A stretch of DNA of 64,000 nt. It comes from Asparagopsis taxiformis. Its lineage: Eukaryota; Rhodophyta; Florideophyceae; Bonnemaisoniales; Bonnemaisoniaceae. The notes below the pieces were generated by a model. The model was not told where the DNA came from and did not search any database. It worked only from the letters and a program-made list of their open reading frames with translations. The stretch lies in NCBI GenBank assembly GCA_030407315.1, contig JALQPE010001972.1, forward strand, positions 36,106 to 100,105, in the 5' to 3' direction. Positions 1 to 20,400 of the stretch are shown here, one piece after another; the stretch's first letter is position 1; every line of letters begins with the position of its first letter. A program made the position numbers and the translations under genes.

Positions 1-2437
1 TATTCTCGAGGAGGTGGGGAGGTGGACTCGGCTGTTCGTCCTCGTACCGGTGGACCAGAAACCCCTTCGAAGTCACCTTCGATTTCGTGGGGGTTTCTTC
101 CTCCTCCTCACTCTCACCTTCATTGTCACGCTCCTTCTCACCCGAAGACGGGGGTTGACCAGGAAGCGGAAGGGAGGGAGGAGGGGAAGAAGTGCTGCCA
201 AGAGCGATGAGCTGCTCTGCAACGGCAGCACTTCTGGTCTTCGACCGAGTAACCCGGGCCGGAAGCGGACTAAAGGTATCGTCCCTTTTCCTCTTTTCCC
301 CTCGGCGGGTACTCTTGGAGGGCTTCTTGACCTTGCCCAGAGATATGGGAGTCTTCTCTCCTACGGTGCTCCTCTTGTCCTTGACACCCGCTTCACCCTT
401 GTCCTGTTCCACCGACTCGGTCGTTGAGCCTCCTTTGCGAAAAGGATTGAACTCATCCCCATCCCACGCTTCTTGTAACGTGACCCCTGCAGGAGGGGTC
501 CAAGAAGGGGGGTCATTGGGTTGACGACCATCATAGCACCGACGGGAGCAGACGAAGACCATGTCTCGCTCACCTTGATTCAGGTACTTGATGGGGATGA
601 GATGGTGGACGCGGGGATAGTCGCACAGGTTGTGAACTGGCTTAGAGTTGCACGCTGTGCATTTGTGCACAGCGGCAGAGCCGGGAAAGCGACAGTGCGG
701 TCCAAGAGAGCAAGGGAAGGGGCGTGGAGTAGTTTCGTCGGCCGGAATGCGAATGGCACGCGAAACGGGATACTCCGCACCACCCCCCAGCGGTTCAGAG
801 ACTTCCGCAGTTTCGGGGTTCTGCTGTTCCCCCATAGGAGTGGGGGGAACTGGAGCAGGGGAGGGTGGTGACACAGCCATAGGAGACTTGGGGGGAGAAG
901 ATGGAGCCCGGGCAGCGGAGGGTGTTGAGACAGCCATGGGAGACTGAGCAGGAGAGGGATGAGGAGAAGGGGTGGTGGGATTGGCAGGAGGGGTGGTGGG
1001 ATTGCCTGAGGACCCGGGAGCATTCTGCTGCGTTTGTTCAGGTGGAACAGCAGCAGAAATGTCCAAGGGACCAGTTTCATCCTCTGGGAGGGGCTCAGAG
1101 GGAAGGGGGACAGGGAGAGGCTCGATGATAGTTTCTCCGAACTGTGTCGGAGAACGATCCTTGCCAGGCACTTGCGATGGTGATCCTGGCGGAGGGACAG
1201 GTGCAGGAGGAGCACTCGTTGAAGCCCTCGCACCCTCCTCCATTACCACGTCATTGGCGGGAGTGGTATTCGCAGCAGAGTCCAACGGCTCAGTACGAGG
1301 AGGAGTCTGTTGCTTCGGTGCAACATTGAAACGATGCTGGATGACCGAACGGAAATCTTCTATACGAAGATCTTGGTTCTCCGTTCTCTTCGGCACCGGC
1401 TCCTCCTCGTACTGAACCATACGCTTGAACACGGATTTCCAGGTCGGGATCATTTCCTTTCCATCCGGTTCAAGGTCTTCCAGGTCTGCCAATTGCTCCG
1501 TACTGAGGTCAACCATGGGTGCTAGTTCACGGATGACCTCGTAGAAATCTCTAACGTAATTGAGATATGTACGGAGCTGGAGACCTGGGATACGTCCAAA
1601 CGAATGCATCAGCAGCACAGACCGGTAGTGAAGGCATTTGACCATCAATTCACTAGCACGGTCTTCAGCCTTCGTGAATGCTGTGTCTTTTAGGACCAGA
1701 AGGCTGATGCCGACCTCGTTCTCCTTCCTCCCGGAAGCCATCTTGTAGGCTGCGTACGTGCGAGGCGAACGTCGCATATTCATAGCTACATTGACGATGG
1801 ACGTCACGGTACTCTTCCGGAGGATGCCAGAAAAATGACGTTGGAAGAACCAATTAGACAGCTGCGAAGCCGTCATGTTGGCCAGATTCCTATCCCCAGG
1901 TTGAGCGTACTTGAGGTTGCAATTGTATATGCTAATGATAGCATGTATACGATCCCGGATGGTGGTTGGCAAAACAGTGTGAACAAGCTCATTCAACCGC
2001 TGACTGAGGTAAAGGACATCCTCCATAGTCATTGGCGCACCATCCGGCCTCAAGGCTTCCTGGACAGGAACGTTGTCCACAACGGAAGCTAAACGCTCAA
2101 CCTGTTCCTCCTTCGCCCGCACCAGAGCTCCACGACGATGAAGACCGTCCGCTATGTAGTAGCGTGTTCCATCGGGCCCAAATGGTAGATTTACCACAGT
2201 CATGGAGCCCACAGAAGAGGTCTGAAAGCCTTCGAGAACCATCTTCTGGAACAGCACTTCAACATGAGAGACATCAACCTCGCGGGATGTTTCTTCCGTG
2301 ACATGAATGTCAGCGATCGGAAGTTTCGTTTCCCTGAACAGGTAGTTCGAAAGCGAGGTGCCAGTGCGGGACATGGCAGGGATGGTGAGCTCTCGAGCTG
2401 CACTGGTGGTCGACAGAGGGATAGTACGCGGAGGCAT
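1..2437 (-). CDS. ParB-like domain protein with Pro-rich linker and Cys/His cluster (3' end outside window)
   Basis: I read one uninterrupted minus-strand frame of 812 codons from an ATG at 2437 to the left edge; it has no stop in the window. Residues ~42-112 resemble a ParB/sulfiredoxin-type fold: a hydrophobic strand, then YYIADGLHRRGAL, matching the family signature of a small hydrophobic run, D-G-x-x-R and A. A helical region of unknown type follows (~115-350). Then comes a Pro/Ser/Thr-rich linker (~380-555) and a Cys/His cluster (~565-625: C-x5-C, CTAC, HNLC, CSRRC) that could bind zinc. The tail is charged, with a basic patch (GEKRKRDD), suggesting nuclear location. ParB-like domains bind DNA or CTP or act as nucleases; which applies here is unknown. 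Its neighbour on the same strand is a DNA methyltransferase-SET gene, and ParB-like domains often accompany DNA methylases in phages. The domain call is by eye only. Confidence 0.6.
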   Translation of the reverse strand, partial: MPPRTIPLSTTSAARELTIPAMSRTGTSLSNYLFRETKLPIADIHVTEETSREVDVSHVEVLFQKMVLEGFQTSSVGSMTVVNLPFGPDGTRYYIADGLHRRGALVRAKEEQVERLASVVDNVPVQEALRPDGAPMTMEDVLYLSQRLNELVHTVLPTTIRDRIHAIISIYNCNLKYAQPGDRNLANMTASQLSNWFFQRHFSGILRKSTVTSIVNVAMNMRRSPRTYAAYKMASGRKENEVGISLLVLKDTAFTKAEDRASELMVKCLHYRSVLLMHSFGRIPGLQLRTYLNYVRDFYEVIRELAPMVDLSTEQLADLEDLEPDGKEMIPTWKSVFKRMVQYEEEPVPKRTENQDLRIEDFRSVIQHRFNVAPKQQTPPRTEPLDSAANTTPANDVVMEEGARASTSAPPAPVPPPGSPSQVPGKDRSPTQFGETIIEPLPVPLPSEPLPEDETGPLDISAAVPPEQTQQNAPGSSGNPTTPPANPTTPSPHPSPAQSPMAVSTPSAARAPSSPPKSPMAVSPPSPAPVPPTPMGEQQNPETAEVSEPLGGGAEYPVSRAIRIPADETTPRPFPCSLGPHCRFPGSAAVHKCTACNSKPVHNLCDYPRVHHLIPIKYLNQGERDMVFVCSRRCYDGRQPNDPPSWTPPAGVTLQEAWDGDEFNPFRKGGSTTESVEQDKGEAGVKDKRSTVGEKTPISLGKVKKPSKSTRRGEKRKRDDTFSPLPARVTRSKTRSAAVAEQLIALGSTSSPPPSLPLPGQPPSSGEKERDNEGESEEEEETPTKSKVTSKGFLVHRYEDEQPSPPPHLLEN

Positions 2438-2940
2438 GTTGTTTTTGCCGAGTGGGTAGCGCGGAAGTGTAGTGAGAAAGAGAGGGGGATAGGAGAATAG
2501 AGATGGTTGAGGAGAGATAGACTGTCGCTTTAGAGAGACAGTGGGAGGGAGAGTGTGGTGGATAGTGCCAGAGAGATTGGCAATGAAGTGGTAGAGAGGA
2601 TCCCTGAAAGGTTGGCAGAGAGAGGTAGGTAGAGGTGGAGAGATTGGTGTAGGGAGTGAAAGAGAGAAAGAGAGAGAGAGAGAGCGGAACAGTGCGTCTC
2701 GTAGGGGGAAGTCCTCGATCGGGATTGCTTTTCAGGTGCAGAAGAAGCAGAGAGAGTAGCAGATGAGTAGGAGCCGAGAAAGAAGAAGTGGATGGTCGTG
2801 TAAGGTATGCACTTGAAGGTTGTCCAAACAGGACCGTGGGACAGCGCAATATAACAACTAATGCGCATAATATCCGCCGGTTGCGTCCTAATCAATCAGA
2901 ACTCATATTGAACGGTCATGGAGAGAATGGAGGATGGGCA
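2438..2940. promoter_or_regulatory. Upstream region of the ParB-like gene with GA/CT-rich tract
   Basis: No gene is supported here. The stretch is rich in GA on the plus strand (run at about 2645-2690), so it is CT-rich on the coding strand of the minus-strand gene starting at 2437. Pyrimidine-rich leaders are common upstream of eukaryotic genes. Overlapping minus-strand frames through this tract look like low-complexity artefacts. Confidence 0.3.
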
Positions 2941-3062
2941 TTAAATTTGGTAATTTTTTTCGCTCTGAAATTACTGCAGTAAAAAGTGATCTAGCTTTGT
3001 GCACTTAGGTAGATCACTTTTTACTGCAGTAATTTCAGAGCGAAAAAAATTTCCAAATTTTA
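2941..3062. repeat. Palindromic repeat P, copy 1
   Basis: A ~120-bp near-perfect inverted repeat. Each arm runs from AAATTTGG through TTACTGCAGTAAAAA to GATCTAGC, with a short centre containing GTGCAC. Four related copies lie within the next 6 kb. A MITE-like or hairpin element is the simplest reading. Confidence 0.85.
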
Positions 3063-3447
3063 AGCGCATCTTGAGCTGACCCGTGGCGCCTTTTCGGCGA
3101 CTGCTCTAGCCTGCACTAAACGCGACCGTTGCTTCGATGATTTTATTGAGCAAAACAGAATGGCTTACGTTTACTTTCTACAATAAACGGTCTTTGACGC
3201 AGCTTGACTGTGTCTATCAAGTTGTATGCGTCACTGCCAATGTGCCCATTTCAGCTGGCTCAGAGTAATTCATCGAGTACGGACACGAAATACTGTTCTG
3301 TGTAACCAGCACCCTGTCAGGAGAAATGTTGAGAAGTAAATGTTTTCCCATCTTCCTTTACACCCTGTTCATAGAATTCAAATAAGTGTATGCGAGACAG
3401 GATGTAAATCCTTGCACAGGTCCCCTAAACGACGTAAAATACGAGCG

Positions 3448-3569
3448 TAAAATTTGGTAATTTTTTTGGCTGTGAAATTACTGCAGTAAAAAGCGATCTA
3501 GCTTGTGCACTTAGGTAGATCGCTTTTTACTGCAGTAATTTCAGAGCCAAAAAAATTACCAAATTTTAC
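3448..3569. repeat. Palindromic repeat P, copy 2
   Basis: Same family as the copy at 2941-3062: arms begin TAAAATTTGGTAATTTTTTTGG and pair across a GTGCAC centre. It lies at the edge of the inverted duplication. Confidence 0.85.
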
Positions 3570-4039
3570 AGTCTAGCTTGTGGCGCCTGTGGCACTTGCC
3601 TTGCACATCTCCCCTCATACCGCGGACCAATACCCTCTGTTTCGGGCATCTCAACCATCGGAACGGAAGCCAGCGAGCAATGCAATGTAGTTGTTCCTCT
3701 ACTTTTCCATCGCTATATTCACCCGGATGTACATGAACTAATCTAAATGCACCGTATGGTAATGCACGAAGCATGACCACGAATACATGTTCTGGTCTGT
3801 CCCTCCCTTAGTGGAGCTACTTGCGCTTGCGAGCAAACAATCGTGACACCCACAAGGTGTGGTACAGAACCATCATACACAGTCGAGCTGCGTCAAAGAC
3901 CGTTTATTGTAGAAAGTAAACGTAAGCCATACCATTTTGCTTAATGACATCATTGAAGCAACGGTCGTGTTGAGTGCAGACTAGAGCTCAGACTAGAGCA
4001 GTCGCCGAAAAGGCACCACAGGCGCCACAAGCTATACTG

Positions 4040-4160
4040 TAAAATTTGGTAATTTTTTTGGCTCTGAAATTACTGCAGTAAAAAGCGATCTACCTAAGTG
4101 CACAAGCTAGATCGCTTTTTACTGCAGTAATTTCACAGCCAAAAAAATTACCAAATTTTA
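4040..4160. repeat. Palindromic repeat P, copy 3
   Basis: Same family. It separates duplicated block A' (3880-4028) from block B' (4161-4397), just downstream of the stop codon of the methyltransferase-SET gene. It may act as a 3' hairpin for that transcript; that role is inference. Confidence 0.85.
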
Positions 4161-4308
4161 CGCTCGTATTTTACGTCGTTTAGGGGACCTGTGCAAGGAT
4201 TTCCCTCCTGGCTCACATACACGTACTTGAACTACAATTCTATGAACAGAGTTTAAAGGAAGATGGGAAAACATTTACTTCTCAACATTTCTCCAGACAG
4301 GGTACTGG

Positions 4309-5565
4309 TTATACGGAAAAGTATTCGTGTCCGTACTCGATGAATAACTCTGAGCCAGCTGAAATGGGCACATTGGCAGTGACGCATACAACTTGATAGG
4401 TTGATACAGAGGTCTCATCAAGAACTTCTTGTATGGGGGAAGAGAAACTAACATTAGCAGAACGCGACGGACGCTCAGTTCCCTCCGCTGGGTCCACAAA
4501 CGTTGGGTCGTTGATTTTCGATGCCGCACAATACTCGAATGGAACAATGAAGATTGGACTTGCAGACGTGGATGGCATCAGACATTTCACATTTGCATCC
4601 TTAATTTGAACAGCGTACTTCTGGAAACGCTCAATCGAGAAGGAAGTAGGTCCAGTACCGAAAGTCTTCAACTTCGCCTTGTACAAATCCTTGTAAACCA
4701 CAGACCCGAAATAGTACCCTACGATATCTCCAGGATCAATATCCACTCTTGCAAACAGACCGTCACCAGCCGAAGGAATCGTTGACGCTGCGACGTATAC
4801 ATTGTGTGCCATCGCGTCTATTGACAGCAGGGTTTTAATATCCACGGTAGACAACAAACCCAGCAGCGATTGTGGCCACTTATCAATGGGTTGGTCTGTC
4901 AACTCCTTGTGCTGGTCCGGAATGCACCAGATGCCAGTAAGAAAGCTGATGAGGTGGGGCGGAAGTTTGGTTGAAATGGGCACTTTTGAGGTTGTCTTCA
5001 ATGATGAACTCTCTTCCGAAGTTCCCAGACGAGCAGAAGCCAGCTGCTGTAGGGCAGTCGTGGACTGCTGGGCAAAGTTCCCAATAGAGACCTGGTGGAG
5101 AAATGCGACGTTGACTCTAGGAAGAGACAGTTCGTAGCAATCCTTGAACTTCTCACACCCGACAAACCTCCTGTACTGACCATGGTGCATTGTCAGGCAT
5201 GCAACAGCAGTGGAGAAAGTTCCAGCAAACATGTCAACAACCAGGTCGCCCTGGTTTGAGAAACGCCCAATGAGCTCTTGCATGAGAGCGACGGTCTTCT
5301 GCTCGGGGCGCAACGTAACCTTCTTCTTGTCCTTGTCCATATATTTCACCGTCTCCGACGCAGTGATCCGCGGGATGTTGTCGATGACATTTGTCCAAGC
5401 CTTGAATCTAGAAGGTATGTATCCGGCATTTCGGTAATTAACCATCCCCCAGCCTTCTCTCCCCTTGCCGAGCTTGGTGGCATGTACGACCAACTCCACC
5501 ATATTCAACAAACTTGTCGTGATACGATACGGGGGGATGTGAAATGTGTCGGACTCCGAGTACAC
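4309..5565 (-). CDS. DNA methyltransferase C-terminal part (motif I) fused to a SET domain
   Basis: This is the downstream half of the gene whose upstream half ends at 5505. There is no ATG at its start: the frame opens at a GTG inside the overlap, so it is not a separate gene. The first ~150 codons complete a beta-type adenine methyltransferase: RPEQKTVALMQELIGRF, then the SAM-binding motif VVDMFAGTFSTAVA and VGCEKF. A SET domain occupies the last ~170 codons: AGDGLFARVDIDPGDIVG at its start, a KINDP...NVSF element, and AGSELFIEYGHEY at the C-terminus, matching the usual SET end (G-x-E-L-F-x-x-Y-G). SET domains methylate protein lysines, typically histones. The classical NHSC motif is not evident; the IND...N form is an alternative seen in some SET proteins. 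Fusion of a DNA adenine methylase to a SET domain is unusual. Confidence 0.75.
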   Translation of the reverse strand: MYSESDTFHIPPYRITTSLLNMVELVVHATKLGKGREGWGMVNYRNAGYIPSRFKAWTNVIDNIPRITASETVKYMDKDKKKVTLRPEQKTVALMQELIGRFSNQGDLVVDMFAGTFSTAVACLTMHHGQYRRFVGCEKFKDCYELSLPRVNVAFLHQVSIGNFAQQSTTALQQLASARLGTSEESSSLKTTSKVPISTKLPPHLISFLTGIWCIPDQHKELTDQPIDKWPQSLLGLLSTVDIKTLLSIDAMAHNVYVAASTIPSAGDGLFARVDIDPGDIVGYYFGSVVYKDLYKAKLKTFGTGPTSFSIERFQKYAVQIKDANVKCLMPSTSASPIFIVPFEYCAASKINDPTFVDPAEGTERPSRSANVSFSSPIQEVLDETSVSTYQVVCVTANVPISAGSELFIEYGHEYFSV

Positions 5566-7793
5566 ACAATAGGCTGCGAATCAACGGCAAACATAGGATA
5601 GCCGGCAGAGTACTTCACTTTGCGGAGCTCGTAAACCCAATTGTAGAACAGAGCAGCAGATGTGAATATGAGAACATGACCACCCTTGCGCGTCACCTTG
5701 GAAATTTCAGCTACCGTGTCTTCGATTTCTTCCTGACGGAGGACATCGTAACCAGAGTTTCCTCTGCCGGACATACGCCTAGTATTGTACGGCGGGTCAG
5801 TGAGGACCAACTGAGCACCTTCCCGGATTTGCGGCTTACCAGGATTGTCAACGGCGTCGTAGTTTTTCAGAAGGTCTCGGAAACTACAGTTGAATGTATG
5901 TAGGAAACATCCTTTCATGTCCTCCAGTTCCGCAGGAATTAACACTTCCTCTTCGACCCGCATGGAGTTCACATCAGCTTCGTTTGGACCGGTGCTGCTG
6001 CTAGCCGGGTTAGCCCCTGAGCTTGCTGCACCGATCGTACTGACCTCTAGACGCCTACGCTTATTCGGGTTCGCGGCCACGGCTTCCGACACCTGTCGGG
6101 TTACCGAAGATTCCCGCACTGGAGAAGCTGTCGTCTCCATTTCTCTGAACAGCTCCTCATTTGGGTCGGGCGTTGATTGCGGCTCTTCTGTGAGGCTGAA
6201 CGCTGTGAGCTGCCTTTCCACCATCGCCAGTGCCGGAATAGTCGTGAACCTCCCGGAAACCGGGGAACCGGGGGACGGCTGGAAGCTCTGTATGAACGGT
6301 ATATCTTGCGGAGCCGAGACAGATAGGTCGAACAATTTGTCATTGCGACATATTGCCATTAAGTGTTCCCAGAATGACTTTGCACAGAGGCGCATCTGAG
6401 CGTCTTGCAGCAGCGTACGATGGACAGCAGCACTTGAAATGCTTGCCGAGTGTTGCACTCTTCGAACAGCTCCTCTGCCATGCAACAAGGTCTTCAGCTC
6501 TCGAAGCGGTGAAAAGCCCCTATTTTCCGAGTCCAGGACGTGGTACGTAAACAGTCTCTGGTCGTAAAGAAGGTAAGGTTGTAGGAGCTCTTCTGCACCG
6601 CCTGACCCCAAGGATTTTGCCAACTCATCCCATGCTGCCAGAACCTGATGAACCCCATATCCCAGACGCTGTGCCGTAAAAGGACTGTCCTTTTTGATTA
6701 GCGCTGTCAATCTAGCCGCAGACCTGGTTCTTGTCCGTTGTCGTGGGCGCGTTTCTACTCGCAACTTCCAGTCTCGATCCATCTGAATCAATCCCATGAG
6801 AAATACAACTTTCCGGAAAGACGGGGAATATCTTGGAGTTGCCCAGTTACCATGATCTGTAGCCCTTTCCTGAACGTGTGAAACAAAGAATTGACAAGCC
6901 AGAGTTTGCCTGGAGTACGCATCTCGTCCAATAGCTGTCCTTTCCTGTGTGTTATGGTTTTGGTATTCATAGAACACTGGACCTGAGGGACGAGGACTCT
7001 GGGAGGTTTTCGTTGAAATTTCTACACCCCTTGGCTCATCACGCTCATTGATGTACACCGGAATAAAGAACGATACCGACAAATCCTGCATCCCACAGCT
7101 GGTAAGAAACAGATCCCATACTCTAGTATCAAGCTCTGTATTGCCATCATCACCAGTACTCGTGAAGTTCCGCACTGATTGCACAATGTTAAACGTGTGG
7201 CGGTGGTACGCATATGAAAACCACCTGTCAACGATTACGATGGCTTCTAGAGATGGTAGATTGAATCTGTACAGACTGCCCACAGCCCTTCGGAACGCTG
7301 AGAGTGAACGTTCTTCGAGTGGAACGTTATCTTCGTCCTTCTCTCTATTATGCCAGCAGTCCCGCATGTAAGCTACAATTGACACACTTTCGTAGAACGG
7401 AATTGTCCTTTCGCTCTCCAGAATGTGATACAGAATCAAGGCAAGCGTATGCGGTTTCGTGGAAATAGACTCATAGCACATGCGGAGTAAATACCTTGAA
7501 GTCTTGGTTCGGGGGCGTGACAATACCTCTTCGCACACGTCCATACCTCCAACCAGGGTAACGTCCCCGTTTTCCGCTATGGTACCGTACAGATAGAGAG
7601 CATCGAAGTTTAGGTGCGTTCCGCGGGGAATATCAGAGGCAGGAGTGGCAGCCCCTTCAATCGCTGGAATTGAAACAACGCGCGCCGGATCCACCCAGAG
7701 AATTGTTCCGTCTCCGTACAAATCATGCGGTTCTGTTGGTCCATTTTCGCTGCGTGTTACGACGAGCCCATGTCGCCGTCGTACTTCCGCCAT
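5505..7793 (-). CDS. DNA adenine methyltransferase, N-terminal and catalytic part (DPPY)
   Basis: I prefer the ATG at 7793 (MAEVRRRHG) over one 37 codons upstream, because the upstream stretch is a hydrophobic translation of what looks like leader. The first ~550 residues are not recognised. A short stretch near residues 15-80 (VDPARVVSIP ... DVTLVGGMD) may be a degenerate ParB-like fold. After a Ser-rich linker with a basic patch (NKRRRLE) comes the methylase catalytic motif LVLTDPPYNTRR (codons for DPPY at 5787-5798), then GGHVLIFTS. This is motif IV placed before motif I, as in beta-class N6-adenine or N4-cytosine methylases. The frame stops at 5505, but the family-like sequence continues without a gap in another frame from about 5565. 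The switch coincides with GTGTGT at about 5562-5568, where one GT more or less restores one frame. Either this is a disabling indel, an assembly error, or a frameshift site. Confidence 0.75.
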   Translation of the reverse strand: MAEVRRRHGLVVTRSENGPTEPHDLYGDGTILWVDPARVVSIPAIEGAATPASDIPRGTHLNFDALYLYGTIAENGDVTLVGGMDVCEEVLSRPRTKTSRYLLRMCYESISTKPHTLALILYHILESERTIPFYESVSIVAYMRDCWHNREKDEDNVPLEERSLSAFRRAVGSLYRFNLPSLEAIVIVDRWFSYAYHRHTFNIVQSVRNFTSTGDDGNTELDTRVWDLFLTSCGMQDLSVSFFIPVYINERDEPRGVEISTKTSQSPRPSGPVFYEYQNHNTQERTAIGRDAYSRQTLACQFFVSHVQERATDHGNWATPRYSPSFRKVVFLMGLIQMDRDWKLRVETRPRQRTRTRSAARLTALIKKDSPFTAQRLGYGVHQVLAAWDELAKSLGSGGAEELLQPYLLYDQRLFTYHVLDSENRGFSPLRELKTLLHGRGAVRRVQHSASISSAAVHRTLLQDAQMRLCAKSFWEHLMAICRNDKLFDLSVSAPQDIPFIQSFQPSPGSPVSGRFTTIPALAMVERQLTAFSLTEEPQSTPDPNEELFREMETTASPVRESSVTRQVSEAVAANPNKRRRLEVSTIGAASSGANPASSSTGPNEADVNSMRVEEEVLIPAELEDMKGCFLHTFNCSFRDLLKNYDAVDNPGKPQIREGAQLVLTDPPYNTRRMSGRGNSGYDVLRQEEIEDTVAEISKVTRKGGHVLIFTSAALFYNWVYELRKVKYSAGYPMFAVDSQPIVCTRSPTHFTSPRIVSRQVC

Positions 7794-8151
7794 TACTTGT
7801 GAGGTGAAGAGAAAAGGGAGAGCAGGGAGAATGGAAAAAGATGAGTGGGGAAAGTTTTCGACGATCAAAGGGCGGACTGGAAGTCCACGCCCTCCAAAGT
7901 CCACGCGGCGCCAATAAATTCGAAATCGGAAATTCTGGAACCGACACGCCGCCGATATCTCGCGAGGGGACGTGAGGATGGCGACAGAAGCCAGAGTTGT
8001 ATTGCAGGGATTAGAGTAGGGGTTTGTACTAGTTTGGAAGGGGTGCGTAAGTCGCTTGCACTCTGTGCCAGTAAACTAACTTCAACGAGCGCGAATGGCA
8101 AGGAGATAGTAGAGAAATAATAGTAGCAAGACTCGTTCTCGATTCACAATT

Positions 8152-8269
8152 GAAATTTGGTAATTTTTTTCGCTCTGAAATTACTGCAGTAAAAAGTGAT
8201 CTAGCAAAGTGCACTTGGCTAGATCACTTTTTGCTGCAGTAATTTCAGAATGAAAAATTTCCAAATTTA
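8152..8269. repeat. Palindromic repeat P, copy 4
   Basis: Same family as the copies at 2.9-4.2 kb, slightly more diverged (one arm reads TTGCTGCAG). It sits ~360 bp upstream of the methyltransferase gene start, in the divergent promoter region shared with the plus-strand gene at 9165. Confidence 0.85.
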
Positions 8270-8811
8270 AAGCACCGCTCTAATCGTTCATGCTTTATTC
8301 CAGAACTAACCAACTGAAACGTCTGACTAGTTTATGGAACGATAATCATCAGATTCTTCTTTTACGAATAAATCTTGCTGGGAATTCCTAGTTTTGGATA
8401 TCGATCGTTAAACTAGTCTAGACTTTTAACTAACTTCGCGGACGTCCTACGATACATTCCAGCGCATGATGATGGCGTCGTACTGCTGTTCAGCATGCTG
8501 ACAAGTGCACTAGTGTGTAAAATTGCGCAATGTTATACATGTGTGCTGCAGAGTAAGGGGGCTATCACTTGCTCTGCTTATTGCACTCTGCGCATATTGG
8601 AATGCACAGAGCAAAAAAGTTAGCTTTGCTGTCGTTAACATTGCGGGGCACCAATGTGCTCTGCTACGTACAAATTCCCGGTCGTGTATTACCAAAGTAT
8701 ACGGCCGAAAAGCTCACCGAGTTTCCCAGTGCCGCACCTTCACAGTCTCTGAGCAGAATAAGCGGTGGTAAAATACTACGTCATGTATTGTTGGCCGTCA
8801 TGGTTTGTACA
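8270..8811. other. Intergenic stretch between two P palindromes
   Basis: No gene is supported. Short frames on both strands at 8510-8830 have no recognisable domain and overlap each other. Likely part of the divergent control region between the genes starting at 7793 (minus) and 9165 (plus). Confidence 0.4.
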
Positions 8812-8935
8812 GTTGAAATTTGGTAATTTTTACGGCCTGAAATTACTGCAGTAAAAAGCGATCTAGCAAAGTGCACAATGGTAGATCGCTTTTTACTGCA
8901 GCAATTTCAGACCATAAAAATTACCAAATTTCAAC
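8812..8935. repeat. Palindromic repeat P, copy 5
   Basis: Near-perfect inverted repeat of the same family, with GTTGAAATTTGG at its outer ends. Arms pair through TTACTGCAGTAAAAA to the GTGCAC-containing centre. It lies ~230 bp upstream of the plus-strand gene. Confidence 0.85.
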
Positions 8936-9164
8936 TCGAGCCTACATTGCTGGTTTCACTGCTTCTCAGTATGCCGAGGACCGTTACAGCCCTCATATTT
9001 CGTAACGGCACTACCATTGCACTTGTCCGTTACATGATTGGTCTGCTTACGACAGACATTTCCCTCGAGTCTTTCTATTTATCTTTCCCGTTGGATAATC
9101 AATTTGCTCGTGCACCTCAATTCTCCTCTCCCGGACGTGGAACATCCCATCATTTCGAGCTGAA

Positions 9165-10846
9165 ATGCGAGATGAATTATCATTGTCAAGGTTTGCAAAG
9201 TTTGAGGAACAGTTTGCATCCCTCGAACAGTATATGCGCGACTCCCTTTCGTCCATTGAAATGGAGCTTGCTTGCATTCGGTACATGACCTCGGCTGCTG
9301 CAGGGACAAACACTGTACCTTCAGTAGTTCTCGAGGAGAGATCAAGAAGATCAGGTCAAATTACCACTCTAGTGTCCTCTTTGTTCAACAATAGGCATGT
9401 GACATCTAGATTCGTCGCTTTCCGAACCGTTGCAGAGCTTACCAAAACTTCAGTGGATCCCAGTTTGTTCAGGAACTTGAATGCAAGGTCTGACGAAACC
9501 GCGCAAGTGAAGTCCTGTACAACATTGCTACTTGCTGCATTGTCGTTTTCGCAGACTTCCAGTTCTAATGCAGAGGTAAGACAATCCAAGAAATCTCTAA
9601 TTGGCACTGCGGTTGGGAAACGGCATATATTCTTAAAACGCTCTATTGTCGGAACAGCATTTATTTCGATGGCGAATGACAGAATTGTACGATGGAAGGA
9701 CTCGGCCACCAGGAATGCCGGCATCCTGGACCCCGGCGAAGAAGAGGACTTGAACAGCAATACTATCTCGAGAGATTATGCACTACGGAATGCAACAATT
9801 GTGCCCATCGATAAACCATCTTGGCTGCACATTTCGCAGCGCGCTCTTTTGCATGCTATGGATATTTCGATGCCCACGGAGGCGGAACGCAACATAGAAC
9901 AGACCACGAGTTTGCAGGTTGGATCTTCGAAGCGTCGGCGACTGTCTGGTTCAAAAGGAGAAGCACGCCGTGCATCTACGTCCTCCTCTTCGTCTTCCGC
10001 TATGCCCAACCTGTCACCGTCTGATATACAATCCATTCCGATCATTACCTCTGCTCTACGGCAGCTCACCCAGTTCTTCAACAGTTCCCGTAAGCAAATG
10101 AAAATGGAATTGGTCAAGCAAGCATTCTTCCTCATCCACCGAGATATGAAGGCAACTATTGCTGTTCCACTCGACTCTGATGTGTCAACGTCGGACATGT
10201 GTCCACCTGACTCGATTCCGACAACGTCGAAAGCTTACGGAACAGGAGAAGACGCTCTGAAAGTGTATTCAAAAATGATTCCATCTTCTCAAATTTCATT
10301 CTCAGCCGTCCCGAGCTCCACGTTCAGGTTACTTACAAAGTTCAGGTAAGCGGCGGTATCGGTAATGGAAACATTACAACTGCGCAGAATCCGGTGGAGA
10401 AATTGGCTGTATGTTCATTCTCTTTTCTTACTTTAGCTATGATATTGTTATGCAGTTTCTGTCAATGCACACAACTGGAGATGCTTTGTCATGAGCCCCA
10501 TGCCATTCAAGCTTGTTATCAGATAGCAATATGTCTCCAAGGTTTATTCAATGCGGCCCTCAGCAAGTTACCTACACCTCAATTCGGGAAAGATGGATTC
10601 CCTTTGCGAGTTGCATGGGGGCATCTAGAGCTGCGGGACTACCTCATGGGAGGTGATTGCCTGTTCGGAATCATCAGAAAGAAGAGAAATCTCACTGCTG
10701 AAGAATATGAGTCTGTACGTTTCGATTCAAGCATCGTACAAACCGAACTTTCCTTTGAAAACACGGCAGACAGGCGCGTTTCCAATCCTGATTGCGTCCC
10801 TCTACAGGAGGATGACGAGCTTGGTATTTCTCTAATTGATGTGTAG
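9165..10846 (+). CDS. Unknown two-exon nuclear-type protein with N-terminal coiled coil
   Basis: Exon 1 runs 9165-10345 and exon 2 10456-10846, joined across a GT-AG intron (donor GTAAGC at 10346, acceptor TTATGCAG ending 10455). An earlier AG at 10436 also fits, but it leads to a stop within 20 codons, while the later one opens a ~130-codon frame. The product is ~523 residues. Residues 1-45 are charged and heptad-like (LSRFAKFEEQFASLEQYM). Near 260-285 is a basic patch with a Ser run (KRRRLSGSKG), likely a nuclear signal. The rest is unrecognised. It is divergent from the methyltransferase-SET gene and convergent with the Tudor-like gene. The N-terminus could lie further upstream if another exon exists. 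Confidence 0.6.
10346..10455 (+). other. Intron of the coiled-coil gene
   Basis: A 110-bp intron with donor AG/GTAAGC and acceptor TTATGCAG. Splicing moves the reading frame from that of exon 1 into the open frame after 10456; no stop-free frame crosses the interval unspliced. An alternative acceptor at 10435-10436 (TTACTTTAG) would give a short C-terminus. Confidence 0.55.
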
Positions 10847-10983
10847 TACTGCTTTGATTAGAAACTTTATATCGGTATGGTTCATTAGTAGTTCTAGGAA
10901 AAGTCCCAACGCTCAACTAGTTCTGCTTTGCAATGCATGCATCATCTGCATTAAAGTATTTCTGATTCATCCAACTGCTGGCA

Positions 10984-11217
10984 TCATTTAATGTACTCCT
11001 CTGCCTTTTTCTCTGACGCACTATACCCTACCACGTCGTTCACTACATCTTCTGTTATCAACTTGTCTATACGACAAGGTTCTTCCACACCACGGAATAC
11101 GACGTACGGCATATGAACTCTCAGAGATCCCCACAGTACATCCCCGCCTTTCCTCGCTTTCTTTGCATCGCAGGCTCCCATTCTATACGGAAACATTTCT
11201 TTCCTTCGCTTTTCCAC
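10984..11217 (-). CDS. Possible alternative C-terminal exon of the Tudor-like gene
   Basis: An open minus-strand frame overlapping the end of the 518-codon ORF (stop at 11121) in another frame. Its later part, WGSLRVHMPYVVFRGVEEP followed by an acidic/basic end, reads more like a folded protein than the competing frame. It could be joined by an intron or a frameshift, but I could not identify a convincing splice pair. Not recognised. Confidence 0.25.
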   Translation of the reverse strand: MEKRRKEMFPYRMGACDAKKARKGGDVLWGSLRVHMPYVVFRGVEEPCRIDKLITEDVVNDVVGYSASEKKAEEYIK

Positions 11218-12677
11218 CCTTCCAGACTCCCTTCACCGTCGCTCCTCCCGTGCACATCACATGTCAAAGGACATTTCTGCAGCTCCATTCCGTGCACGTA
11301 TTCACCTTGGACCACAGCACTACTTTTTCGAATTAGACACCACACGTTTGATGTTGTTTCCGCACTGCAGAATGAGCTACTGCCAATTGCAACAGATGTC
11401 GACTGTGCTTCCATCATTCCCGAGCACAATATCGTACCAAACAACCGCAAACCACATGACCTCGCCGAACCGTTCATGTAACTACACTCTTCATTGTCCT
11501 CCACTTCCGAGTTGCTGATGTTACGCCTTTGAACCAGACACTCGGTTCGCCATCGGTGCCCCAATCCTAGCAGATCTGATAGTGTTGCAAAACTGGAACA
11601 CGTAATGTTCAAAGCTTCCCCACCAGTTCCAGCTACTGCCGCGTGAAGCCCTGGGTACACTTTGTAATACCCCCCTCCATAGATTTCTGCTGTTCCCTTT
11701 AGCATTTCCCGGAATAACTCAGTGCTCAATGAGATGGGAATCTGCACCGGTCCGCTAATAGCCGTTCCACTTGTACATGCACCGTCAATCTCACTATGTG
11801 GGTAGCCGCCACCTGAGTTTGACAAAGTGCTTCGATTAACCTGTTCCACAACTTTCTCTACCGCACGCTGTAAGAGCATCAATAAAACCTTACCAGCTGA
11901 TACTGTTGATCCACAATTTCGAACCATTCCGCTCCAACCAAGCCGACACTCGCTACCATTTCCAGAAAGCATTATATTTTCTAGTGTTCTCAGCCTTGTC
12001 TCCATACTACCGTATGTGTTGGCGTCAAGTGCTGATTCCACTTTTTGCTTCTTCCTATGCGGTGATATCGCTTCAGATTCTCCATCTGATTGTTCATGAA
12101 ATTCTACTCCCACCGCTTCGTAGTCCACAACCTCTCTGTTGCTCCTTCGCCACTGTGTCGGTGGCTGACCCCCGGACATTAACTTACTTCCCATCAGAAA
12201 TTTTACATGTTCGTAGGAAACACAAGGGTAATTCCTTTCAGGGATAGCATCATATAACAATCTGCCTTCCGCAACCACCATTTCATCGTGCCTTGGCTTC
12301 ACAGCATCCGAGTACCGCCACTTTGATACTTCCATCACTGCAATATCCTTTTCCTCCGTCGTCAACCTCACAATTGCATCACCCACATCCTGTCCATTGT
12401 GCTCCACCACACCAGGCGTGTACACGCCATCTCCTCTGTCTACATCGATGCGGTCTCCCACTGACGGCTTACCACTGCAGACAGGATACTGCTCAGGAAG
12501 TTTGATTTCCACAACAGTAGCCTTCCACCATATTGCGTCATCACCCACTTGGAACCATACGTCTATTTGCGAGCCGACACAGGGAAGTGCATCTACGGCC
12601 GCTGCTCGCTCACGCTCACGGCCAGCTTTCGCTTTTTCGCTCTGTCGCCTAATTCGCAATGATTCACGCCTAGTCAT
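11121..12677 (-). CDS. Protein with two Tudor/Agenet-like segments
   Basis: A 518-residue frame from an ATG at 12677. After a basic N-terminus (RRESLRIRRQSEKAKAGRER) there are two short beta-barrel-like segments typical of Tudor/Agenet/PWWP-type folds: IDVWFQVGDDAIWWKATVVE (~38-58) and VGDRIDVDRGDGVYTPGVVE (~72-92). Such folds read methylated lysine or arginine, or bind DNA. A nuclear signal (HRKKQKVE) lies near residue 205. The remaining ~300 residues are Ser/Cys-rich and unrecognised. The gene is convergent with the coiled-coil gene ending at 10846. Its proximity to a SET-containing gene suggests a reader of the mark, which is inference. The true C-terminus may use the frame at 10984-11217. 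Confidence 0.55.
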   Translation of the reverse strand: MTRRESLRIRRQSEKAKAGRERERAAAVDALPCVGSQIDVWFQVGDDAIWWKATVVEIKLPEQYPVCSGKPSVGDRIDVDRGDGVYTPGVVEHNGQDVGDAIVRLTTEEKDIAVMEVSKWRYSDAVKPRHDEMVVAEGRLLYDAIPERNYPCVSYEHVKFLMGSKLMSGGQPPTQWRRSNREVVDYEAVGVEFHEQSDGESEAISPHRKKQKVESALDANTYGSMETRLRTLENIMLSGNGSECRLGWSGMVRNCGSTVSAGKVLLMLLQRAVEKVVEQVNRSTLSNSGGGYPHSEIDGACTSGTAISGPVQIPISLSTELFREMLKGTAEIYGGGYYKVYPGLHAAVAGTGGEALNITCSSFATLSDLLGLGHRWRTECLVQRRNISNSEVEDNEECSYMNGSARSCGLRLFGTILCSGMMEAQSTSVAIGSSSFCSAETTSNVWCLIRKSSAVVQGEYVHGMELQKCPLTCDVHGRSDGEGSLEGWKSEGKKCFRIEWEPAMQRKRGKAGMYCGDL

Positions 12678-12912: not shown

Positions 12913-13664
12913 TATTCAGGTCAATCTTGTGTATGCAGGAGTGACTTTATTACAAAATTTAGCGACTTTGATAATAACTATGCTGTAGTATCTGTGCTAA
13001 AAATCTACATAGATGGTGCCATTCTTTACTAAGTAATACTAGAAAAACTAAACTCAAGTACAATTATCTACTCTTTCGACCGTACCCTACCTATGGTACA
13101 ACAATGGCCATATCGAGATTAGCTAGTTAACGTCATACACTCTGCATTTCGCCTCTTCCATATGATATATTATTCCTCATGGACGCCCAAAACGTGACGC
13201 TATCGAAGGGTATGGCGCGTTGGAACAGTCAGTACCAGTCCATCACTCTAGCCTCACTACACTGCTACGAATGCCATCTGTACTACAGACCGGCGTAACC
13301 ATCCAAGTTCATGGTTCGAGTCCAACATGGTACTGTCACACATATGGTTCCCTCGTTTCGTCATTCCAGCATGGAAATTATAAAAATCGTGGAATATGCC
13401 ACCTCCGGTCACTGTCATGACCAACGCGACGTGTCCTTGTCCTTTCCATTGTTATTTTTCCGTACAGTACTGGAAAATTCCACCATGTCACGGTGATTAT
13501 ACCCACTCCCACGGCGCAGTTTCATTCCACTATATTCTTTACGGTATTTCCACTACTTATCTATGGCACGGCGCCGGTAATTTCTGGGATTTTTTGATGG
13601 TTTGTCATTCCACTAATTTCTAATGGTCCAGACCATGAAATTTGCTGGTTTTTCAAAAAATTGC
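12913..13664. other. AT-rich intergenic DNA
   Basis: I see no gene, long repeat or RNA here. Composition changes abruptly at ~13,670, where the GC-rich block begins. Confidence 0.5.
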
Positions 13665-15056
13665 TTATCCTGTGATAACCCGATACTCCGGCCCCAACGC
13701 AAGGGCGCCGCGAACCTCAGCCAACGCGCTGGTAACGGAGACGAACGTGTCGGAACCGTCCACCGGGATTGCACGAAGCATCTCGTAGTCGGCCAGGAAG
13801 TCCAACGTGGACTCCGGCAGTAGGCACGCGCGCCCGAACACACGACGTTCCACGAACAGCGAGCATGCGAGCATCGCTGCGTGTTCGATATCCACGGCCA
13901 TGAGGAATCGTTCCTTCACGGGGGCAGGCGCGTCCTTCACGGCATCGGTAAAGTAGTGCACCACGCGTGGTAGCAACGTGGACGACCCACGGGGGTACGG
14001 AAACTCCTCTACTACGTCCGGCAACGGCGGGAAGTAGAGCTCGCTCGGGACGACCCACGGAGCCGACGCGTGCGACACACGGTAGTCGTCCGCGTTCACG
14101 TGGCGGAGAGCGAAGTGGTCATCGTACGACACGACGCTTTTGGAGATGACGCTCAACGAAAGAGCAGTCTTCCATTCGGCACGTTGCCTTTCGGAAAGTG
14201 TCCGCGGACATACGAATACGGACGCCACCGAGATGAACGGCGGTTCCTCGGGCGTCCCCTTCCACAGGAAGGCGTCCATACGATCGACGTAGATCGCGTC
14301 GTTGACGTCACGCAACCACGAGCGGTCGCAACGTATCGACGCCGGGATCTGGTAACGTTCCGATCCCGGTGGCCCGTTGGCGAAACGACGCCCGGCTGCC
14401 CGCCCCCACGTATCTTCGGCGGAACGCATATAGTCGACGACCGCGCGGGCGTCCAGACGATCTCTGGCCAACGTGGCGAGATCGTCATCCGTGATACCCA
14501 CGCGAGGCAACGCAGCCCACGCGTGGGTCAGGACGCCTACGTTGAGCGCCGCACCGCCACGTGAGGCGGTGCCGACCGTCCCAACGGGGTCACCACCCTC
14601 CGGCGAGGGATCCTGGTGAGGGGAGCGCGGCGAGCCACCACGACGAGGCGCGCCCGTGCGGGCCGCCGCCACAGCACGACGCGAACGAGCGGCCGCTGCC
14701 ATCGCGGCTACCCCCATCGACGGGGCCGCGGCATCCGGAATGACGGGTGACGAATTCCCCGAGTCGGACGCCGTTGCGTCATCATCACGTGGGGCGACGG
14801 CCCTAGCAGCCTCGGCAGGCGTCACGGAAGCCACCAGGCGAGACGGAGCCATGGGGCGAGACGAAGAGGCGACGGCCTGAGGAGCAACGGCTTCTCCCGC
14901 CCTAACGGATGGGGCGGGCGCGACAGACGCTTCCGTCGCTGGCGGCGCACCGGCCCCGACGAGGGAGGGAGCGCCCTGCGAAGGGTTCCTCGCTCCACCT
15001 CCAGCAGAGCCGGCGGGCCGCGGGGTGTTAGCATCGGTACTACGAGTCGTAACCAT
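13665..15056 (-). CDS. Unknown Ala-rich protein of the GC-rich block
   Basis: A long minus-strand frame. I prefer the ATG at 15056 (MVTTRSTDANTPRP; 463 residues), because such a start is typical of retroelement gag-like proteins. An upstream ATG at 15200 would add 48 residues with a strong membrane segment (ARVALVVVLVALIVIIVYSV), so a membrane form cannot be excluded. Residues ~15-190 are low-complexity Ala/Pro/Ser. The C-terminal ~270 residues look globular (WGRAAGRRFANGPPG, DAIYVDRMDAFLWKG, AEWKTALSLSVIS) but are not recognised. The stop codon lies within 10 bp of the AT/GC composition border, suggesting the gene belongs to the inserted GC-rich block rather than the host. It is divergent from the gypsy element gag at 16342. 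Confidence 0.5.
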   Translation of the reverse strand: MVTTRSTDANTPRPAGSAGGGARNPSQGAPSLVGAGAPPATEASVAPAPSVRAGEAVAPQAVASSSRPMAPSRLVASVTPAEAARAVAPRDDDATASDSGNSSPVIPDAAAPSMGVAAMAAAARSRRAVAAARTGAPRRGGSPRSPHQDPSPEGGDPVGTVGTASRGGAALNVGVLTHAWAALPRVGITDDDLATLARDRLDARAVVDYMRSAEDTWGRAAGRRFANGPPGSERYQIPASIRCDRSWLRDVNDAIYVDRMDAFLWKGTPEEPPFISVASVFVCPRTLSERQRAEWKTALSLSVISKSVVSYDDHFALRHVNADDYRVSHASAPWVVPSELYFPPLPDVVEEFPYPRGSSTLLPRVVHYFTDAVKDAPAPVKERFLMAVDIEHAAMLACSLFVERRVFGRACLLPESTLDFLADYEMLRAIPVDGSDTFVSVTSALAEVRGALALGPEYRVITG

Positions 15057-17418: not shown

Positions 17419-20400
17419 ATGGTGACTCAGGAAGAGATAGGGGTCACCGAGGGGGACGAGGATTCGCCGGCGACTCGTCCTCCTATCCCCACCACACAGG
17501 ACCAAGAGGTTGCCATCTCATCCGATGCATCGCCTCGGACTGATGTTCCTGTCCTAGCCGTCGGAACAAAGAACTACCGCGTGGACGTCCTTTTCGCTCT
17601 CAAGAGTGAAAAATACGCACACGTACCAGCAATTCTGGACACTGGTGCTAGCTTGAGCGTGTTCAAGGAGTCATGCCTACCGGCAGACTGGAAAGAACGC
17701 TATCCGTTGGATTTATTACCCGCAGGGGTGCACGTCCTGGACGCTAATGGGAAGCGCATGCCGCCGATCGCGTTAGCAACAATACCAATCCAAGTCGGAA
17801 GATCGTCTCTGCGTCAACGTTTTATCGTAGTGGAGCAGCTATCGGTGTCCTGCATCCTAGGCTGCGACTTCATTAACGCAGCTGTCGAAGCCATACTACC
17901 AAAACAGAAGGTAATGGTACTGCAGCGGACTCAAGAACGGGTGCCGATAGGGTGGACGAAGCGCCCAGAACGGCTAAGGCCCAATACCGCAAGGACGAGA
18001 AACGACGGTGTTGACAGGGCAATACGAATCGCCAAGAGGACTCTCCTGCGCCCTGGAACCGCCACAAGAGTACCAGTTGTTGCCCGTACGCAGGGACTCC
18101 AAGTCATGGTGCCCTATAAGGAATTATCGGATATCCGCCAAGTACAAATGCTGAATGGCATCGCAACCATCCGGCCATTGGTGCCCTTTGGAGTGCAGGT
18201 TATGAACTTCGGCGGCCGCGACGTATGGCTACCGAAAGGGATGGTCATGGGACATACTGATGGTCCACCACCTGCCATACTCACCCTACAGGGCCAGAAA
18301 CCCAAAGGAAATCCAGCGCCAGACGAGCAGCCGAAGGAAACCTCTAGGCTAGGAAAGCCGAATGATGCAGATGACTGGGAACAGAACCTACTCACCGACA
18401 TGAAACTGAAGGACAAATCATTGAAGAACCGTATCCTCCAAATGCTGCGGCGGCACTCTACCATGTGGAGCGGCCACCTGGGAGAAATAGCCGCCACGGA
18501 GCACCGCATTCAGCTCCACGCCGGTGTCCGCCCAATTCGCCAGGCACCTTACCGAGCCGGTCACAAAAACCGGGAGGTGATTTCCGCCCAGATACAAGAA
18601 ATGCTCGATGCCGGAGTCATCGAACCGGCGCAATCAGAATGGGCTAGCCCGGTGGTAGTGGTGCCCAAAAAGGATGGATCCTCCCGCTTTTGCGTCGATT
18701 ACCGGAAACTAAACTCCGTTACGGTGAAAGATGCATACCCCATACCCCGGATGAATGACTGCATCGATTCGCTTGGAGAAGCATGCATTTTCACAACCTT
18801 GGATTGCAATAGCGGCTATTGGCAAATCCCTGTCGCGCCGGAAGACCGTGAGAAGACTACCTTCACGGCCCACGTTGGGTCCTACCAGTTCCTCCGAATG
18901 CCTTTCGGACTAACTAACGCACCTGCGACCTTCCAAAGAGCGCTGGATATACTGCTCTCGGCGGTAAAATGGCGCTTTTGTTTGGTCTATCTGGATGATG
19001 TTATCATCTTCTCCCGCTCAGAGGAAGAGCACCTGACTCATGTAGACGAGATACTAACGATATTACGAAAAGCGGGAGTGACCTTGAAGTTCAAGAAGAG
19101 CGAATTCTTCAGGCGCAAGGTCGACTACCTAGGCCATCGCATCCGACCCGGACGCCTAGAAGTCTTGTCACAGGGCTTGAATGCGATACAAGGGGCAGAG
19201 TACCCCACCACGCAGACTCAACTGAGAAGTTTCCTGGGTTCTTGTAATGTATATCGCAGATTCGTGAAGTCTTTCGCTAAACTCGCCGCCCCGCTGACAG
19301 AATTGCTGAAGAAGGGAGCTCCAACTAGCCTAGGGGTCCCATCGGTCGAACAGCAATGTGCGTTCAACGCACTGAAGGAAGCGCTAATATCCCCGCCGAT
19401 ACTATGTTTACCGAAACCGGGAATGCATTACACCCTCGACGTGGATGCTTCGGATTACCAGTTGGGTTGCGCGCTACTCCAGGAGCAAGAAGACAAGGTT
19501 CTCCACCCGGTTGGTTACTGGAGTAAAACCATGAATGACGCGCAAAGAAGATACTCTACAACGGAGAAGGAGTGTCTGGCGGTATTCTGGGCCATATCAC
19601 TACTGCGCCCGTACCTCAAGGGGACAAGGTTCACCGTCAGAACGGATCACAACGCCCTGACGTGGATCCTATCTATCACCCCCTCAGAGGGGAGGCTCAC
19701 TCGATGGAGGTTACGCCTAGCCGAATTCGACTTTGACATCGAATACCGTCCAGGCGTCAAGAAGGTAGTCCCCGACTCACTCTCGCGCTTACGGACAACC
19801 GGAACGGATAAGTACCCCATCGAAGAGGAGATTCCAACCTTCCTGATCGACGAGCAGTTGGACGCAGGTGCGTCCAACAGCGAAGAATGGGGAGAAGAGA
19901 TGTATCCCGCACTGTTTCGTGAATCCGTTCCGTGTTTTGTAAATCTCACAGAGGCCCTACCAATCGCTATTTCACGCGACGAATGGGTAGTCGAGCAAAG
20001 CAGAGACGACCTATGCCAGACCATCCAGGGAAGGATGGAACGGGGAGAACAAACCGAATACGCTTTGACGACAGAAGGGGTGCTGGTTCGCACCCACCCG
20101 AGGACCCGAAGCGTTCAAGTCGTGGTCCCAGAATCACTTCGCCCTCGCTTACTCAAGGCATACCATTTTTCGGCCATTGCAGGACACCCTGGGATACGGC
20201 GAATGTACGAAACCCTTAAGCAAAACCTCTATTGGCCGTCAATGATCGTTGACGTGTATGCGACAGTGAGGGGTTGCGAGACCTGCGCAAAAGACCGTAT
20301 CCAATTGTCGCGTCATACCAATCCGCTGCAGTTATTTCCAGCGACGTATCCCTTAGAGGAGATCGCAATTGACATACTAGGACCTCTGCCTAGGACCGCA

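Follow-up and report, generated by a model that had tools for sequence, protein, structure and literature searches.

A 64,000-nucleotide stretch of the genome of the red alga Asparagopsis taxiformis, here called the window (contig C1847, positions 36106 to 100105, in an assembly of 141.5 Mb and 3,156 contigs), carries at its left end four adjacent genes set among near-perfect palindromes, with both the genes and the palindromes present as the initial annotation had described. The genes encode a ParB-like protein, a DNA methyltransferase fused to a SET domain, and two further proteins termed X and Y, and they lie within a mobile element. The initial annotation had envisaged a mobile or island-like unit, and mobile it is, though larger than first drawn: it extends from -9016 to 13674, where negative positions lie left of the window (in the left-flank stretch L009, position 8895 corresponds to window position -1105).

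Termini, insertion sites and transposase

The right border of the element is sharp at window position 13674 (±1) in five of the seven other contigs compared, with contig C792 stopping just short of it, and the left border was observed at approximately -9016 in C792 and C1837. Comparison of the termini places the right inverted terminus, TTGCTTATCCTGTG, at 13661..13674 on the reverse strand, and its complement, the left terminus CACAGGATAAGCAA, within L009 starting at -9016. The ends thus take the form CACAGG...CCTGTG, with the 5'-CA..TG-3' inverted termini of the CMCT clade, which comprises EnSpm/CACTA, Mirage, Chapaev, Transib, Plavaka, ESTA, and Lanisha (PMC12730594). The terminal 14-mer has 225 exact matches in the genome, with 100 of these places itemised, compared with no occurrence of the reversed control.

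At the eight distinct loci for which both termini were identified, these lie 21.8 to 36.2 kb apart, and a 2-bp target duplication is present at six of the loci (C86 TG, C635 TC, C1000 TG, C1844 TG, C1837 TT, and C1986 GA). This length lies within the 2–5 bp expected of the CMCT clade, and a search for duplications of 5–8 bp at the element ends found none. The joined flanks of the C635 element match one uninterrupted place in the genome at 98%, two bases shorter, and those of the C1000 element match six uninterrupted places at 91–97%. Furthermore, the C86 element interrupts a reverse transcriptase, the frame of which is open once the element and one duplication are removed. Given the inverted termini, 2-bp duplications, empty sites, and interrupted frame, the unit bounded by -9016 and 13674 is a transposon, with a static host gene cluster ruled out by the copies, termini, and empty sites. 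Two opposite-facing element ends, ~555 bases apart, are found at C86:15061-15616 and C730:15639-16194 with flanks common to both contigs, which are probably alleles; contig counts given here may take in both alleles of one locus (C384/C98, C86/C730). Three 45-bp tandem units lie near the left terminus at L009:1745-1879.

The transposase gene occupies L009:3388-7524, just left of the window, and its product has a RAG1/Transib-like fold in the predicted structure. The pair C711-x2-C714 is invariant in all 13 transposase sequences and lies between the invariant residues D685 and E1065, corresponding to the C(2)C motif of the CMCT clade, with the putative catalytic residues assigned from their place in the model. 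An invariant H1040-x3-E1044 is found where the CMCT clade has H(3-4)H before the last E. None of the 13 family members matches a Pfam transposase family at E ≤ 1, the scan returning three unrelated weak matches in one member each (E = 0.14–0.3). Visual inspection had suggested KDZ/Plavaka, but Pfam did not confirm this assignment, which was replaced by the RAG1-like fold. The predicted fold of the transposase, together with the ends, duplications, and empty sites of the element, supports its placement in the CMCT clade as a giant DNA transposon of the cut-and-paste type.

The methyltransferase-SET gene

The product of the gene at 4309-7793 matches both PF01555 (E = 2.2e-10, 41.3 bits against a cut-off of 26.7) and the SET family PF00856 (26.5 bits against a cut-off of 22.4), in agreement with the DNA methylase and SET domain first proposed for it. 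Beta-class amino-methyltransferases carry the catalytic DPPY before FxGxx, and in the methylase of this gene DPPY likewise precedes FAGTFST, with profile and motifs together identifying an N6/N4 amino-methyltransferase of this class. From the DPPY motif, we infer that its DNA target would be adenine. The SET assignment is similarly founded on profile and motifs, with GxGxF, ND, and ELxxxY kept in most of the aligned homologue rows; SET domains usually bear an NHS motif at the position of ND, the residues that matter being GxG, N, and ELxxxY. Profile matches of the SET domain include EZH2, KMT2, and KMT5A types, compatible with more than one type of histone mark.

Comparison of frames and copies shows that, in the subfamily to which the window belongs, a frame shift divides the gene, annotated as one unit, into parts of 762 and 397 aa in all ten distinct copies. 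The first half (762 aa; 5505..7793, reverse strand) comprises an N-terminal region of no assigned family followed by motif IV, DPPY, and the second (4309..5565, reverse strand), delimited by profiles and by the homologues P0001–P0008, comprises motif I, FAGTFST, a linker, and the SET domain. An intron between the two methylase frames is ruled out, as a second subfamily, represented by C1000, reads straight through. The shifted-frame subfamily is present in at least 33 near-identical full-length copies, with help in trans or translational frameshifting as possible accounts.

The eight relatives of the protein, P0001–P0008, share 28–36% identity with it; those named are from Pyropia and Gracilariopsis only, the latter being a shorter piece. 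A red-algal origin is indicated by these named homologues and by thirteen matches to phycobilisome linkers. Both domains exceed the Pfam cut-offs in three of the four relatives scanned, with the SET domain of the Pyropia protein just under its cut-off. The methylase resembles the phage type, with phrog_67 matched at E = 3e-29 by P0006 and 89 phage records matched, and a scan of IMG/VR with the methylase returned 185 relatives, with 80 loci retained.

The DNA of 4309-7793 is found at full length at 33 places including the window (40 candidates scored of 299), and 50 of 67 other genomic copies scored, from 3331 candidates, hold a stop-free frame of 1,200 codons or more. Taken together, the two scans (33 + 67) place the gene at a minimum of 100 genomic loci. 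Ratios of dN/dS, here and for gene X below, were calculated for one pair, the window against C1000, with our own script, at a dS mostly of 0.6–0.8 (range 0.25–1.2). The two parts of the methylase give 0.07 (DPPY part) and 0.03, the SET domain 0.06 at a dS of 1.2, near saturation, the whole second half 0.08, and the upstream N-terminal region 0.24. The low ratios of the methylase and SET domain indicate that both catalytic domains are maintained by selection.

The ParB-like gene

The gene at 1..2437 (reverse strand), present as annotated, proves not to be complete within the window, which holds its N-terminal two thirds; it forms one frame of 1,180 aa that crosses the left window edge and continues to L009:8895 (window -1105). 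A homologue, P0009, shares 55% identity at 95% coverage. The ParB-like N-terminus proposed in the initial annotation, which had also set the profile test in advance, is modestly upheld, with residues ~38–124 matching the phage ParB profile phrog_1033 at E = 0.06 in the window protein and E = 7.8e-5 in P0009; the same region has no match in Pfam or NCBIfam. When scored against a phage ParB-like protein selected by a search at E = 8, P0009 and the window protein each exceed all of 2000 shuffles, the latter narrowly (a score of 56, with the best shuffle at 54).

Besides the ParB-like region, the protein carries a basic linker, a PHD-like C4HC3 cluster at residues 576–634, and a 2-oxoglutarate (2OG)-dioxygenase-like domain at residues ~820–1145, the latter encoded left of the window. 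All eight ligands of the C4HC3 cluster, and the HxD..H..R set formed by H1012, D1014, H1095, and R1122, are identical in both sequences (the window protein and P0009). The first spacing of the C4HC3 is shorter in the PHD consensus than in this protein. Such residues hint at a finger of PHD-like type and at a 2OG dioxygenase. A search of PDB sequences with the 1,180-aa protein gave one unrelated match (E = 0.85).

Palindromes and rearrangement of copies

Seven palindromes of ~120 bp, with centres at -2280, -1390, 3001, 3508, 4100, 8211, and 8873, flank the ParB-like and methyltransferase-SET genes. Of the five inside the window, those at 2942..3060, 3446..3570, 4038..4162, and 8811..8936 were found by a generic scan and alignment, and the less perfect palindrome at 8149..8273 by its cores and an inverted-repeat comparison. 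It is the one missed by the generic scan, which covered 74 kb, recovered six of the seven, and found no others of such quality. A half palindrome core is additionally present at -6970. Each of nine palindromes (seven of the window element and two of C1000) contains GATC twice, CTGCAG twice, and GTGCAC at its centre. Genome-wide, the core occurs 207 + 212 times, and among the 100 of these 419 places that were itemised, many lie, by eye, at the spacing seen in the element and some stand alone. The points at which similarity to two other copies, C2552 and C1900, is lost adjoin the leftmost palindrome, as though the palindromes were breakpoints.

Subfamily C1000 keeps the methyltransferase-SET gene, palindromes, and gene X together, so that the co-location first noted in the window recurs within this genome. 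Within the 1,117-bp intergenic stretch of C1000, the only matches to intergenic DNA of the window are the palindromes (80–88%) and the stretch before gene X (76%). The methyltransferase-SET gene of C1000 runs in the same direction as gene X, whereas that of the window is inverted, next to palindromes. A leftover 3' end of the SET gene persists at 3214..3289 on the forward strand, 99% complementary to 4324-4399, and this scrap, lying in the old SET direction, marks a past inversion or duplication.

Among six copies of the window subfamily, the block 4500-8000 shows six differences in 21,000 compared bases, compared with divergence of up to about 4% in other parts (alignments shorter than 400 bases were dropped, with an identity floor of 97% for the block comparison, or 93%). 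From this contrast, either the copies are mosaics or the block has spread most recently. The older copy C1598 is more diverged, including within the block.

Genes X and Y and other features of the window

Gene X (9165..10846, forward strand) is a single frame of 560 aa, as annotated, in four of six whole copies, a count that excludes C1900 and C792 as cut by the ends of the stretches, and is split in the window; its dN/dS is 0.13 over 287 codons. Gene Y (11121..12677, reverse strand), sought by exact tags within frames of at least 100 aa, encodes 562–564 aa in three of eight copies examined and is truncated in the window. Neither product has a convincing match in the profile libraries searched, and the Tudor-like fold first suggested for gene Y finds no profile support, with no match to the Tudor/Royal family in Pfam (E ≤ 5), NCBIfam, PHROGs, or PDB sequences.

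Elsewhere in the window, a 1,247-aa frame at 55409-59152 (reverse strand) encodes NB-ARC followed by WD40 repeats, an NLR-like architecture in a red alga, and a 729-aa frame at 51884-54073 (forward strand) has a full-length match to the piggyBac-type transposase profile DDE_Tnp_1_7. Long open retroelement polyproteins with reverse transcriptase, RNase H, and integrase lie at 17419-21990 (forward strand), ending in a C-terminal chromodomain, and at 26524-31068 (reverse strand).

Discussion

The initial annotation proposed a mobile system that couples DNA and histone modification, and this is well supported at the level of sequence by the termini, 2-bp duplications, empty sites, adjoining RAG1-like transposase, and presence of both methyltransferase domains in a single protein under purifying selection. 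Judged by the domains, selection, and layout, we think it probable that the element is a CMCT transposon whose epigenetic cargo keeps it expressed and escaping silencing. The RAG1/Transib-fold transposase would move the unit bounded by CACAGG...CCTGTG, making 2-bp target duplications. The methyltransferase-SET fusion would most likely methylate DNA adenines and also lysines on nucleosomes over the same DNA, with the ParB-like, PHD-like, and dioxygenase-like protein most likely binding the element, reading its chromatin, and stripping host silencing marks, and with the conserved intergenic palindromes as likely docking or methylation sites. The combined purpose of the cargo would most likely be expression of the element and escape from silencing. 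An extension of this proposal, which we hold to be unlikely, is a self-contained module of epigenetic inheritance, in which the ParB-like protein would load on the palindromes and spread, the dioxygenase would remove host marks, and the methyltransferase-SET protein would copy DNA and histone marks onto the same chromatin, one protein thus coupling both memories and licensing the element and its neighbours for expression.

Several observations weigh against a transposon with working cargo. Foldseek comparison of the transposase model yields modest TM-scores (0.32 by query and 0.48 by target). All ten distinct copies of the window subfamily have a frame shift within the methylase domain, at 5505-5565, yet the subfamily has been amplified. 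The ParB-like gene is intact in one of five whole copies, that of the window contig, and broken in C2552, C792, C1837, and C544; that of C1900, which runs beyond the stretch end and falls outside this count, is open over the 955 codons covered. Additionally, the dioxygenase and PHD-like calls are motif-based, with no Pfam or PDB match to such families, and structure prediction of the 1,180-aa protein failed (pLDDT 28.6). The copies are not all uniform units, as is evident from the variation in end-to-end span from 21.8 to 36.2 kb. Leftward, C2552 and C1900 cease to resemble the window copy near -2290 and -2194, next to the leftmost palindrome (L009 about 7710-7806), so that the left parts of the element vary; rightward, C1598 does so at 12583. 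A target duplication is absent both at the window copy and at C384 (the same locus as C98). By eye, the left flank of the window copy resembles a retroelement polymerase and its right flank is an unrelated frame, and this copy seems to be recombined or misassembled at its borders.

A cargo that represses is an alternative to which we attach little credence, in which the methyltransferase-SET protein would write a repressive mark and so limit copy number or silence rival elements. The captured PF01555 enzyme of bdelloids, N4CMT, is proposed to mark transposons for silencing together with the histone methylase SETDB1 (PMC8885841), and the EZH2-type SET matches, standing beside those of KMT2 and KMT5A types, allow for such a mark. 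However, promotion fits better than restraint with cargo genes under purifying selection within an element found at 100 or more loci. It is less probable still that DNA methylation and ParB-like binding serve, as in a phage, to shield or process the element while it is excised or replicating, rather than to edit chromatin. Phage affinities are visible both in the methylase (the phrog_67 match of P0006 and the 89 phage records) and in the ParB-like domain, with its match to a phage profile, but selection has conserved the fused SET domain (dN/dS of 0.06, at the near-saturated dS of 1.2) and the partner protein carries a PHD-like cluster. The large size, several genes, and phage-like enzymes of the unit could also be those of an endogenous virus or virophage-like element; we disfavour this reading as very improbable, with the RAG1-like transposase, inverted termini, and 2-bp duplications all pointing to a transposon, and with pattern-based scans of IMG/VR finding no relative of the transposase, ParB-like protein, or dioxygenase.

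The palindromes themselves might be mere small hairpin elements, or repeats homogenised by conversion, and have no role. We regard this as doubtful, though somewhat less so than a repressive cargo: they are near-perfect hairpins, several to each element, among which conversion is possible, and some of the 100 itemised places stand alone. Nevertheless, the palindromes of C1000 and the window remain 80–88% identical at a dS between the subfamilies mostly of 0.6–0.8 (0.25–1.2), and other intergenic DNA is unmatched except before gene X.

If a transposon with epigenetic cargo is the correct reading, one conserved protein that joins a DNA methyltransferase of bacterial type to a SET domain, listed at no fewer than 100 loci and borne by a transposon with a RAG1-like transposase, would amount to an epigenome editor of natural origin. 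The import into eukaryotes of non-native DNA marks (6mA or 4mC) by mobile elements, and their means of defeating silencing, would become open to testing, and the transposase clan that gave rise to RAG1 would gain an apparent algal lineage.

Comparison with known systems

There are precedents for transposons that bear genes for TET/JBP, SET, or other methyltransferases (PMC12730594, PMC3627910). A literature search by title found no transposon-borne DNA methyltransferase-SET fusion and no ParB-like cargo of a eukaryotic transposon, and the term 'red alga' is absent from the available text of PMC12695648. With CMCT-clade transposons the element shares CA..TG termini, 2-bp duplications, C(2)C between the second D and last E, and a RAG1-like fold, but differs in the lack of any Pfam transposase match in its 13 transposase family members, in its size of about 22 kb or more, and in a cargo unlike any named in the portion of PMC12730594 available. 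Proteins of phages with ParB-like and N6/N4 methylase domains (phrog_1033 and phrog_67) are similar in sequence in both domains, with the matches spanning those domains only and not the SET, PHD-like, or dioxygenase-like parts.

The mariner-type transposons of algal viruses likewise carry methyltransferase genes, but of other families, with another transposase and with no SET named in the text available (PMC3627910). SET genes are carried by the HarbingerS and MuDR families of Phytophthora (cited in PMC12730594); in the present element, in contrast, SET is fused to a DNA methyltransferase and the transposase is of another class. The bdelloid N4CMT likewise links a prokaryote-type PF01555 methyltransferase with histone methylation in a eukaryotic host, but its fusion partner is a histone-reading chromodomain, whereas the methylase described here is transposon-borne and fused to a SET domain that would write (PMC8885841). 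A further parallel lies in the fungal TET/JBP-bearing DNA transposons, some of the CMCT clade, which similarly carry a gene proposed to undo silencing (PMC12730594). The present element differs from these in its red-algal host and in its cargo, a methyltransferase-SET writer and a ParB-like, PHD-like, and dioxygenase-like protein, the latter without a TET/JBP match.

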